A DNA stretch of 50,534 bases from Nodosilinea foveolarum. GTDB taxonomy: Bacteria; Cyanobacteriota; Cyanobacteriia; Phormidesmidales; Phormidesmidaceae. This document shows, piece after piece, positions 3,889 to 30,924 of this stretch. Numbering within the stretch: the first letter of the stretch is position 1; every line of letters starts with the position of its first letter. The translations under genes and the position numbers were made by a program. The stretch is taken from the NCBI GenBank assembly GCA_003242035.1, contig QBMC01000012.1, positions 1 to 50,534 of the forward strand. Direction: 5' to 3'. The notes beneath the pieces are model-generated. The model saw only the letters and a list, made by a program, of their open reading frames with translations. It was not told where the DNA came from and did not search any database.

Positions 3889-3962
3889 TAGGTGATCGCA
3901 AAAGGGAAAGTCCGGTGAAACTCCGGCACTGTGCCGCAACTGTCAAAGTCAGAACACCTTTT
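3889..3962 (+). promoter_or_regulatory. Cobalamin riboswitch (short form)
   Basis: The stretch GGAAAGTCCGGTGAAACTCC followed by GGCACTGTGCCGCAACTGT matches the conserved core of cobalamin riboswitches (family consensus: GGAA, CCGGTGNAANTCCGG, CNGTNCCGCNACTGT). Flanking AGGTG (3890-3894) and CACCT (3955-3959) can pair as the closing stem. The visible core is compact, with little room for the long peripheral arms of class I aptamers, so it may be a class II type. It lies about 65 bp before cbiX in the same orientation, where it should repress chelatase synthesis when corrinoid is plentiful. Confidence 0.85.
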
Positions 3963-4027
3963 ACTTTCGCCTATCTGCCCTTTCATCTCCATTGTCCGCG
4001 TCGCACGGGCCAATGGAAAATTAATTT

Positions 4028-5125
4028 ATGACGCTCATTCAAACATCCGATACGCTTGTCTACACGCCCCATCAGCATCACCGCTCAGCCGTAGCCACCG
4101 CTGTAGCCGAACATACCGTTACCGCACCAGCTACCGCACCGGCCATCCATCTCCCGCCTTTGCCTCTCAAAAGGCCGCTACTCATGGTCGGCCACGGCAC
4201 CCGCAATCCACAGGGACGCCAAACCCTGATCGACTTTGCCAACATTTACCAAGAACTCGACCATTCTCGTCCCGTTCTTCCCTGCTTTTTAGAACTCACA
4301 GAACCCAGCATTCAAGACGGCATCGACCAGTGCGTTGCCCAAGGCCACACCGATTTAACCGTACTGCCGATTCTGCTATTCGCCGCTCGCCACAACAAAT
4401 TCGACGTTACCAACGAGCTAGACCGGGCCAAAGCGCGTCATCCCGGACTCACCTTTCACTATGGCCGTCACTTTGGCATCACCCCCGGCATTCTCGACCT
4501 GTGGAAAGCCCGCTTAGCCCTCCTCGACGAGCCAAAGCACAACCCCAACCGCATTGCCAGAGAAGATACGGTGCTGCTGTTTGTCGGTCGTGGCTCTAGC
4601 GACCCGGATGCCAACGGCGATGTGTCCAAGCTAGCGCGCATCGTGTGGGAAGGCAGCGGCTATCGCACCGTAGAAACCTGCTTCATTGGCATCACCCATC
4701 CACGCCTGGAAGAAGGCTTCGACCGCGCCAGACTGTATAAACCCAAGCGCATCATCGTCTTGCCCTACTTTATGTTCACAGGCGTTTTGATGGAGAAGAT
4801 CGCGCGTATTGCCGACGAGCAGCAGGCCGCGAACCCCGCTAGCGAAGTGATCATGCTGCCCGAGATGGGTCTGCACCCACAGCTCATTCGAGTGCTGCGC
4901 GACAGAGAAATTGAGACTCAGCTCGGACAAGTCGCGATGAACTGCGAAATGTGTAAGTTTCGGCTTGCAGCGGTCTCAGAAGATCAGACTCACGGGCACG
5001 GTCACGGACATGCGCACGGCCACGGACATGGACATGCGCATGGGCACGATCATGGGCAGGCTGAAATGCCCGACCATTATGCTCAGCCTGAGAAATATCA
5101 TGAGCGGATCTGGCAGGTGCCATAA
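4028..5125 (+). CDS. cbiX: Sirohydrochlorin (cobalto)chelatase CbiX with His-rich tail
   Basis: The 365-residue protein carries two CbiX/CbiK-type half-domains. The first begins near residue 55 with the signature [13 protein letters not shown]; the second begins near residue 185 with [16 protein letters not shown]. The C-terminus (about residues 322-345) is a run of His-Gly/His-Ala repeats that would bind divalent metal. CbiX inserts Co2+ into sirohydrochlorin for cobalamin synthesis; SirB relatives insert Fe2+ for siroheme and some insert Ni2+. The cobalamin riboswitch upstream favours the cobalt role (inference). The start is the first ATG after the riboswitch; its Shine-Dalgarno is weak. 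sipA follows after 34 bp in the same direction. Confidence 0.92.
4990..5060 (+). repeat. Degenerate hexanucleotide repeat encoding the CbiX His tract
   Basis: Repeats of CACGGN/CATGCG-type units within cbiX encode alternating His-Gly and His-Ala residues. Such tracts are prone to slippage, so repeat number may vary between strains. Confidence 0.7.
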
Positions 5126-27227: not shown

Positions 27228-27448
27228 AGGGCTTAGGTGCGTTGATGACGTTAGACAAATTGCTTGCGATTGCTCGTCGCCGGATATCCCATTCTCAAGG
27301 TAATCCCTGTAAATATAACTAGAATTGCCTCAAATACTACTCACCGAGTGCCACTTATAGCCGGTTATCCGCTAAAAACTATCTGTTGAAATATGAAGAA
27401 CTGTTATTTCTACGGAAAAGAAATGGTACGATTCCAGTTGTAAATCGC

Positions 27449-27559
27449 TAGGGGTGCCCTAAACCTGCTTTGCAGGAGCCTTCGATTCGTTCAAATCGAA
27501 AGCTGGGCTGAGAACATACCCTCAGAACCTGAGCCTGGGTAATGCCAGCGGAGGAAAGC
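27449..27559 (+). promoter_or_regulatory. TPP riboswitch (THI element)
   Basis: The conserved elements appear in order: AGGGGTGCCC near 27450, a variable stem-loop with CGATT...AATCG, GGGCTGAGAACATACCC, then TCAGAACCTGAGCCTGGGTA and ATGCCAGCGGAGGAAAGC. These are the TPP-binding CTGAGA and ACCTGA cores with the P1 closing strands. It lies 122 bp upstream of a symporter gene and thiC. TPP binding should lower their expression. The GGAGG inside its 3' strand can also serve as a Shine-Dalgarno for the short ORF at 27560. Confidence 0.95.
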
Positions 27560-27691
27560 ATGAATTTTAGGCGAATCTCTTTAAGAGAGGCTGCGCCAAC
27601 GCATATCAGCGGGCCAACGCCTGCTAGTGCGCTAACGGAAACAGCATCCAAAAAATTAGCCATCACTACAGAGGTGCTTAGATGTCTGTAG
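27560..27691 (+). CDS. Short upstream ORF between TPP riboswitch and symporter
   Basis: A 43-codon frame (MNFRRISLREAAPTHISG... ending EVLRCL) starts at an ATG 5 bp after the GGAGG that forms the 3' edge of the riboswitch. It stops at TAG 27689-27691, overlapping the first 10 bases of the symporter gene in another frame. The layout suggests translational coupling: the aptamer would hide this ribosome binding site when TPP is bound. No protein family is recognised, so the act of translation may matter more than the product. It could also be a chance frame. Confidence 0.4.
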   Translation: MNFRRISLREAAPTHISGPTPASALTETASKKLAITTEVLRCL

Positions 27692-29211
27692 GCGCGATCG
27701 CCCTCACGGTGCTATTAGTCGCAGCGGCCACCTTTGCGCTGTTTGGCCTGGTCAAATCCAGCAATCGCGCTATCGACCTCGAAGACTATATGGTTAGTCG
27801 CAATCAGGTCGGCGGGCCAGCGGCAGTTGCCACAGTCACCGCTTCCGCATTGGGTGCCTGGATTTTGTTTAGTCCCCCAGAAGCCGGGTCGGAGTATGGC
27901 GGCATTACCGCTATTTTGGGCTATTGCTTCGGGTCGGCGCTGGCGATCTTTACCTTTGTGTTCGTTGGCCCTCGGCTGCGGCAGATTATGCCCTGGGGCC
28001 ATTCGCTCAATGAATATGTGCGGTATCGGTTTGGAGCAGTTGCCCTGAATGGGAAAAGTGCTGGCAGCTCGACCGGTCGCCTGATGTACCTGCTGACGGT
28101 CGGGGTGATACTGCTGTATATGTTTGTGTATTTGACGGCTGAACTGACGGCGATCGCCAAAGCCCTACAGCTCATTGCCGACGTACCGCTAATCGTTACC
28201 TCACTGGTGGTGATCAGCGCCGTTTTCCTTTACACCACCTACGGCGGACTCAGGGTTACCATCGTCACCGATATCTTCCAGTTTGCGCTGATTGTGCCGC
28301 TGTTGTTGATTTGCTTTGTGGCCACCATTACGCTGCTAGGCGGTATTGGCCCTGCCCTTGCGCCCGTCGCCGATAATCTCCCCGAGCTGCTGTCTTTCAA
28401 CAATATCGGCGGTCTTCGATTTGGCGCAACGCTGTTGATTGCCACGATTGCCGCCGAGTTGTTCAATCAGGGCAACTGGCAGCGGGTATACGCCTGTCGC
28501 AACGACGCCACGGTGCGCCGCTCGTTCTTAGGCGCTGCGCTGATTATTTTACCGCTAATCTTTCTCTCGGGTTCGCTAGGACTAATCGCCGCTGGCTACG
28601 ACTTAGTAGGGGCCACTTCCTTCTTCGATCTGTTGCAAAGCTTGAACATTGCGAACTGGCTGCTAAGCGCCGTCATTTTGCTCGCGGTAGCGTTGGTTAT
28701 GAGTAGCCTAGATTCCCTGCTTAACGGAATTAGCGCCGTGTTTGCTGGCGATTTGCTGCGCGTTAATGACGGCCCTGAAACGGTGCTGCTGATTTCGCGG
28801 GGGCTAACGATTGCCGTGGGAGTTCCGGCAGTGGCGATCGCCTCCCAAGGCTACAGCGTTCTCTATCTGTTCTTTGTTGCCGACTTGCTCTGCGCTGCGC
28901 TGTTGTTTCCGCTGCTGCTAAGCTTTTACAACCGTCATCAAACGGCTGCTAATGCACTGGTAAGTTCGCTTATAGGGATCATTGTCGGCGTTCTGTTCTT
29001 TCCAAAGCCAGACTTTTCACCGCTGGTCAACATTCCTGGCAGCGGCGATTTATTGAACAGCTTTGCCGCTGCGCTTTTGTCCTCCATGTTCATTACGCTG
29101 ATCTGGACGAGCGCTAGCAAACGCAGCAGTCAATTTGCCTTTAACTACAGCGATCTTAAAGAGGTTAAGCCTTACACGGATGGACATTTAGCCATTGAAC
29201 CCAAACTATAA
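27682..29211 (+). CDS. Sodium:solute symporter, probable thiamine/precursor transporter
   Basis: The 509-residue protein has about 13 hydrophobic helices and the SSS-family pattern. The early block DLEDYMVSRNQVGGPAAVATVTASALGAW matches the SSS helix 1-2 region, and the internal segment YTTYGGLRVTIVTDIFQ and the later ALVMSSLDSLLNGISAVFAGD are the conserved SSS signatures. Members import solutes with Na+. The TPP riboswitch upstream and thiC downstream point to thiamine, HMP or a related pyrimidine as substrate. A separate SSS member, ThiV, has been linked to thiamine by the same logic in other bacteria. Substrate assignment is inference. Confidence 0.85.
   Translation: MSVGAIALTVLLVAAATFALFGLVKSSNRAIDLEDYMVSRNQVGGPAAVATVTASALGAWILFSPPEAGSEYGGITAILGYCFGSALAIFTFVFVGPRLRQIMPWGHSLNEYVRYRFGAVALNGKSAGSSTGRLMYLLTVGVILLYMFVYLTAELTAIAKALQLIADVPLIVTSLVVISAVFLYTTYGGLRVTIVTDIFQFALIVPLLLICFVATITLLGGIGPALAPVADNLPELLSFNNIGGLRFGATLLIATIAAELFNQGNWQRVYACRNDATVRRSFLGAALIILPLIFLSGSLGLIAAGYDLVGATSFFDLLQSLNIANWLLSAVILLAVALVMSSLDSLLNGISAVFAGDLLRVNDGPETVLLISRGLTIAVGVPAVAIASQGYSVLYLFFVADLLCAALLFPLLLSFYNRHQTAANALVSSLIGIIVGVLFFPKPDFSPLVNIPGSGDLLNSFAAALLSSMFITLIWTSASKRSSQFAFNYSDLKEVKPYTDGHLAIEPKL

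Positions 29212-29352: not shown

Positions 29353-30924
<1,572 letters not shown>

Follow-up and report, generated by a model that had tools for sequence, protein, structure and literature searches.

A TPP aptamer with an embedded ribosome site and an overlapping leader frame may control a putative HMP importer in Nodosilinea foveolarum

Introduction

The name ThiV reportedly goes back to Rodionov in 2002. Symporters of the SSS type that are called ThiV or SSSP are found under TPP switches in Methylobacillus, SAR11, other bacteria and algae (PMC11452348, PMC4260697, PMC2211319). HMP uptake by SAR11 has a picomolar to nanomolar Km, and ThiV is its likely carrier (PMC11452348). Cyanobacteria are not mentioned by McRose et al in their work on SSSP (PMC4260697), and a recent community study considered cyanobacteria to be virtually all net producers of vitamin B1 (PMC12442306). 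Two modes of control are also relevant. First, TPP switches often hide the ribosome-binding site (RBS) in the aptamer core, a design that is most frequent among Actinobacteria and Cyanobacteria (Barrick and Breaker, 2007; PMC2258182). Second, the B12 switch of Mycobacterium tuberculosis ppe2 acts through a riboswitch-uORF-gene relay by termination-reinitiation, as shown experimentally (PMC11260477).

We analysed a 50,534-nt stretch of the Nodosilinea foveolarum genome (hereafter the window), in which elements of all three systems are found in one leader (Table 1). As with ThiV/SSSP, the PF00474 symporter of the window sits under a TPP switch and would serve pyrimidine supply, and the cyanobacterial symporter persists together with thiG and thiE in genomes without thiC. 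Unlike ThiV/SSSP, it is cyanobacterial, lies mostly beside or upstream of thiC in prototrophs, and would start via an aptamer-embedded RBS or a leader frame; its equivalence with SAR11 ThiV is thus suggested by association. As in the direct-attenuation TPP switches, which are frequent in cyanobacteria, a purine-rich 3' conserved region replaces the RBS (PMC2258182), but here the target is a putative importer and the first product in the window is a leader frame that would relay the signal. As in ppe2, whose main gene needs uORF translation, the riboswitch is followed by a short uORF overlapping the main gene (PMC11260477). The ppe2 leader has a B12 switch, a 4-nt AUGA overlap and no Shine-Dalgarno (SD) sequence before the main gene, whereas the window has a TPP switch, a 10-nt overlap and an extra SD, and its relay is one that we infer.

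Table 1 Features of the symporter locus in the window.
Feature	Position	Strand	Evidence
TPP riboswitch aptamer (RF00059)	27440..27573	+	cmscan 55.1 bits, E 3.6e-8
GGAGG, aptamer core (J5-4 and P4 3' strand), also a Shine-Dalgarno sequence	27550..27554	+	sequence; Rfam structure line
Leader open reading frame, 43 codons	27560..27691	+	ORF reading; no family match
Possible hairpin CTACAGA...TCTGTAG around symporter start codon	27666..27691	+	weak, z -1.2 vs shuffles
AGAGG, Shine-Dalgarno-like sequence of the symporter, inside leader frame	27670..27674	+	sequence
Sodium:solute symporter, 509 aa, proposed HMP importer (ThiV/SSSP-type)	27682..29211	+	PF00474 E 1.4e-14
thiC, HMP-phosphate synthase	29452..30924	+	TIGR00190 1.1e-215; ATG 29452; no TPP switch of its own

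Results

The aptamer core carries a probable ribosome site

The aptamer in Table 1 was the sole TPP match in an Rfam search of the whole genome. It spans the full length of the model, and its score compares with an RF00059 gathering score of 54.3 bits and with 59–67 bits for the aptamers of close relatives. The window's aptamer has a long extra P3 stem-loop, and its P1 consists of just three standard pairs (GCU/AGC) in the Rfam alignment. Two relatives with a long P3 have TPP aptamers slightly under the Rfam threshold.

ATG 27560 stands 5 nt past the GGAGG, and in the Rfam alignment the 3' strand of P1 (AGC) sits after the GGAGG and abuts this ATG. As the GGAGG belongs to the conserved aptamer core, in the 3' strand of P4, the bound switch could mask the ribosome site directly, with the folded aptamer covering the GGAGG and reaching the start codon. 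By sequence, the arrangement of direct translation attenuation (an RBS inside the conserved aptamer and a start at SD distance) is present in the window and throughout its genus (7/7). Folding of the leader alone, in its ligand-free state, gave a minimum-energy structure without the aptamer, so the accessibility values were discarded. Elsewhere in the window, a cobaltochelatase of the CbiX type (4028-5125), which has a His-rich tail, is preceded by an AdoCbl-II riboswitch (3889-3967).

The start behind the aptamer is kept within the genus

We compared seven genomes, the window's and six others of the same genus that carry the symporter; five of the six loci were named, as Leptolyngbya sp. BC1307 and four Phormidesmis assemblies. 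In all seven, a start codon stands 5–6 nt past the purine tract of the aptamer; it is TTG in BC1307 and ATG in the other six. Starts at this offset that lead into or over the symporter start were found in 7/7 leaders of the genus versus 4/49 other leaders, with relatives counted as independent. What follows the start differs between two groups. In four genomes, a leader frame passes over the symporter start out of frame, with 43 codons in the window, 24 in L035, 70 in L037 and 66 in L015. In the other three (L036, L038 and L039), the ATG behind the GGAGG is the symporter's own start, in frame, and the symporter is without the first transmembrane segment found elsewhere. A maximum-likelihood tree of the symporter placed these three in one clade (support 100/99) and the four leader-frame sequences in another (99/84), both inside a genus clade (100/100) whose sister is L009 of genus g4 (99/91). 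The direct-start trio raises, rather than lowers, the likelihood that the aptamer GGAGG serves as a ribosome site. Behind residue 119, the symporters of L037 and L015 also have a hydrophilic, Q/G-rich insertion (roughly 10 to 46 residues), which is specific to the genus, differs in length among strains and is missing outside it.

The window's leader frame ends at TAG 27689-27691 and overlaps the symporter start, ATG 27682, by exactly 10 nt (ATGTCTGTAG). The same overlap recurs in BC1307, where the frame has a TTG start and 24 codons. A uORF stop overlapping the main start out of frame is thus seen with 10 nt in the window and L035, and with longer overlaps in L037 and L015, whose leader stops lie ~80 nt beyond the symporter start; an overlap of this length suits re-initiation poorly. 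On its own the 43-codon frame is not more than chance would give, as we estimate the probability of a random stop-free run of this length at ~0.13.

The frame is not kept as a peptide. The leaders of the window and BC1307 have different lengths and unrelated sequences, and those of L037 and L015 differ before the overlap by 6 synonymous and 10 non-synonymous codon changes (5, 5 and 10 differences at codon positions 1, 2 and 3), a weak third-position excess compared with the 6, 4 and 41 differences in the first 100 codons of their symporters. We therefore rejected a conserved leader peptide as a sign of function. A role of the peptide as such, for instance as a small membrane protein or a regulator, has a very slight probability: four genus members and the sister genus retain the open frame, but it is missing in the direct-start clade and has no match in Pfam or NCBIfam, and the codon changes and unrelated sequences above also speak against it. 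The constant features are the start codon, its spacing from the GGAGG and a frame that stays open across the symporter start; in sequence terms, this fits translational coupling.

The preliminary description had placed the GGAGG 5 bp from the ATG of a 43-codon frame with a 10-bp overlap, and these coordinates and distances were right. It had put the GGAGG at the 3' edge of the THI element; the position holds, but the motif lies inside the conserved core (J5-4/P4 3' strand), not merely at its edge. Its proposal that TPP binding could hide the site agrees with this placement and with the post-aptamer start in 7/7 genomes. It had also called for conservation of the short frame and the overlap in close relatives. 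The start after the GGAGG (7/7), the run over the symporter start (four genomes) and, in BC1307, the exact overlap are conserved; the peptide sequence is not, and three genomes have a direct start instead.

Coupling of the symporter to the leader frame may be only partial, as the symporter has its own AGAGG 7 nt before its ATG. Rho is not known from cyanobacteria, which makes Rho-dependent polarity an unlikely alternative. The CTACAGA/TCTGTAG hairpin has the symporter start codon in its loop and the leader stop codon in its 3' arm; as it was no more stable than shuffled sequences (z -1.2), we rejected it as proof of coupling.

Most relatives outside the genus carry a different element

Outside the genus, the symporter starts some 30–440 nt past the aptamer in the leaders that were measured. 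A pyrimidine-rich element, YYYYTAGY and mostly CCTCTAGC, was found 22–60 nt before the start in 35/49 non-genus leaders, for an expectation of 0.023 per interval of this kind from background density, with relatives counted as independent. The element and GCUAGGGG, which forms the 5' strand of P1 and P2, are complementary, and the sole change among variants of the element is T for C facing a G. A pairing of its CCUC with the GAGG in front of the symporter start is also possible, and the SD hairpins of two leaders (L021 and L024) beat shuffles in stability (z about -3). From these pairings, the CCTCTAGC element looks like an ordinary anti-aptamer and anti-SD element, by which the switch probably controls the ribosome site of the symporter itself. 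The element was absent from the leaders of all 7/7 genus members. The sister-genus locus, L009, has both the CCTCTAGC element and an ATG behind the aptamer GGAGG, which opens a 63-codon frame over the symporter start. The genus thus appears to have lost an anti-aptamer element that most other relatives carry. As a separate observation, a block GCGTTGATTGAGGTTACG..ACCGAA.CGACGAGC is conserved right behind P1 in L020, L021, L024 and many relatives. It is possibly a further stem-loop (CGUUG/CGACG), and its TTG also opens short frames reading LIEVT.PKRRA.

We propose, with a probability of about 0.66, that the aptamer GGAGG, the leader frame and the symporter form a TPP-gated relay and that the symporter is an importer of HMP or a close pyrimidine precursor. 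The elements, their conservation and the clade pattern are observed. When TPP is scarce, the GGAGG would be open and ribosomes would initiate at 27560, translate the 43-codon leader and stop at 27689-27691, from where they could step back 7 nt and re-initiate at the overlapping ATG of the symporter, which has its own AGAGG. With TPP bound, P4 and P1 would close over the GGAGG and the start codon, so that translation of the leader, and hence of the symporter, would be off.

The leader frame might instead be incidental, the symporter being translated from its own AGAGG and TPP acting in some other way, for example by transcription termination or by a fold that reaches that ribosome site. The short distance between this AGAGG and ATG 27682 (7 nt), the unconserved leader peptide and the probable action of the switch on the symporter's own site outside the genus all suit this explanation. 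We nonetheless consider it unlikely, since the CCTCTAGC-type element is in 0/7 genus members and the start after the aptamer GGAGG in 7/7, the symporter of the sister clade within the genus begins at this very codon, and the interval between aptamer and symporter showed neither a match in Rfam nor an obvious alternative element.

Several genomes keep the symporter without thiC

In the window, thiC lies directly downstream of the symporter in the same direction, and it is downstream on the same strand also in the four same-genus genomes in which thiC was placed. Two other loci (L098 and L084) have the order TPP-symporter-TPP-thiC, with a separate aptamer for each gene, which suggests that the window's single-switch operon lost a second TPP aptamer.

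For phylogenetic profiles we used a sample of 194 genomes of the class. Symporter orthologues were found in 45, a TPP switch in 190 and thiC in 185. Of the nine genomes without thiC, three (G044, G140 and G223) also have neither a TPP match nor the symporter, and gaps in the assemblies may explain these absences. The remaining six (G091, G101, G157, G185, G191 and G197) are 99–100% complete and all carry the symporter. Given 45/190, this has p 1.4e-4 by a hand calculation in which relatives were counted as independent; within family f24 alone, the association of thiC loss with the symporter has p about 0.2. A search with a second model for an intact thiC in these six genomes and in G180 found none. 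In G180, a short thiC relic with an internal stop is present (L095, G180:C77:83083-83202), apparently from a recent loss, and the symporter, thiG and thiE are still there. Both thiG (about 1e-110) and thiE (1e-66 or better) are present in all seven genomes. Five of the six (G091, G101, G157, G185 and G197) and G180 have a TPP aptamer above the Rfam threshold in front of the symporter. Since thiC is found in sister species of these genera (G174, G215 and G166), the losses look repeated. A cell that makes and couples the thiazole half and has no HMP synthesis needs HMP or a near relative.

The remaining genome of the six, G191, also has an orphan TPP aptamer (L094:836-935, 63.9 bits) with no recognised thiamine gene downstream; the next recognisable genes resemble ksgA and ispE. 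We rejected it as a scar of a thiC deletion, as its flanks are unlike the thiC locus of G215.

The symporter is most likely an HMP importer

The symporter matches PF00474 with 54.2 bits (cut-off 22.8). Its S341-S342 align with VSSLAS in TM8 of vSGLT, and S341 is invariant in 23 sequences. Serines of TM8 are known as ligands of the Na2 site. This role has been described for SiaT (PMC5931594). The ThiV/SSSP residue signature is Tyr78, Asp139 and Phe254 in SiaT numbering. Y81 of the symporter aligns with Y87 of vSGLT, which we take to be SiaT 78. E154 in TM3 does not vary, and the residue after F261 in TM6 is N or H; their register to SiaT, which matched at 2.5e-8 in the signature mapping, is tentative. 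As a side observation, L047 (G065:C1:2676385-2679002) has a tandem second, partial symporter copy straight after the first.

Most orthologue loci, across several cyanobacterial families, have a TPP aptamer before the symporter, including orthologues not adjacent to thiC and those in thiC-less genomes. More distant homologues are found in haloarchaea (39–41% identity), where they adjoin tenA in 5/7 annotated plasmid records (H1, H3, H4, H5 and H6, not H7 and H8), some of these tenA-linked loci also having thiD and thiamine-phosphate synthase. The annotation of these records, to which this statement is confined, lists no TPP aptamer. The plasmid search returned solely homologues of about 41% identity or less, and no relative was found in viral contigs. 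Since the symporter is TPP-switched across families, is kept in six thiC-less genomes with thiG and thiE, and has homologues beside tenA, it most likely imports HMP.

That it imports an unrelated solute such as proline or pantothenate and is merely carried in the operon is very unlikely. The haloarchaeal homologues are annotated as sodium:proline symporters, Poribacterial relatives are without TPP switches or obvious thiamine neighbours, and the symporter weakly matches the PutP and PanF models. These matches, at 34 and 30 bits, are however far under the cut-offs of 515 and 328, and the aptamers before orthologues away from thiC and in thiC-less genomes argue against a passenger.

Import of thiamine rather than HMP has a better claim than that of an unrelated solute but remains improbable. 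TPP control and the neighbouring thiC fit either substrate, and for SSSP, McRose et al did not decide between thiamine and HMP (PMC4260697). The evidence favours HMP: the thiC-less genomes keep thiG and thiE, which would be useless with imported thiamine; homologues adjoin tenA, a gene for an aminopyrimidine salvage enzyme; and SAR11 cells that have ThiV import HMP, and thiamine does not rescue them (PMC11452348). The operon would then raise the HMP supply in two ways, by sodium-coupled import through the symporter and by synthesis through thiC.

The symporter had been put forward in the preliminary description as a candidate thiamine or HMP importer, which the TPP-linked orthologues, the thiC-less genomes with thiG and thiE, and the tenA neighbours support, with HMP the favoured substrate. 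A grouping with riboswitch-free transporters of an unrelated solute, which it had named as contrary evidence, was not what we found, as orthologues are TPP-switched in several families. The role had been called uncommon for the family, which is partly right, but SSS-type ThiV/SSSP symporters under TPP switches are known (PMC11452348, PMC4260697, PMC2211319). Overall, its interpretation is well supported by the sequence comparison.

Discussion

Riboswitch-linked SSS importers (ThiV/SSSP), TPP aptamers that contain an RBS and a riboswitch-uORF-gene relay (ppe2) are each known singly. What appears to be new is their joint presence in one leader, along with the set of intermediate forms and the association with thiC losses that recur among cyanobacteria. 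We give even odds to a stepwise change of the riboswitch output stage, joined with an importer that lets cyanobacteria lose thiC repeatedly as HMP auxotrophs. The clade pattern itself is observed, and the following is the simplest order of steps that would produce it. At first, an anti-aptamer/anti-SD element would control a distant start, as in most relatives. A start codon would then be gained behind the aptamer GGAGG with the old element still present, as in the sister genus. Loss of the old element would leave the relay through an overlapping leader frame, as in the window's clade, and in its sister clade a deletion would join the transporter directly to the start codon at the aptamer and take away its first membrane helix.

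These leaders would offer a natural series of intermediates for the change of a riboswitch expression platform, in strains that can be compared in one reporter system. The analysis also names a probable HMP importer in cyanobacteria, and it predicts that several thiC-less cyanobacterial genomes are those of HMP auxotrophs, despite the view of cyanobacteria as net producers of vitamin B1 (PMC12442306).
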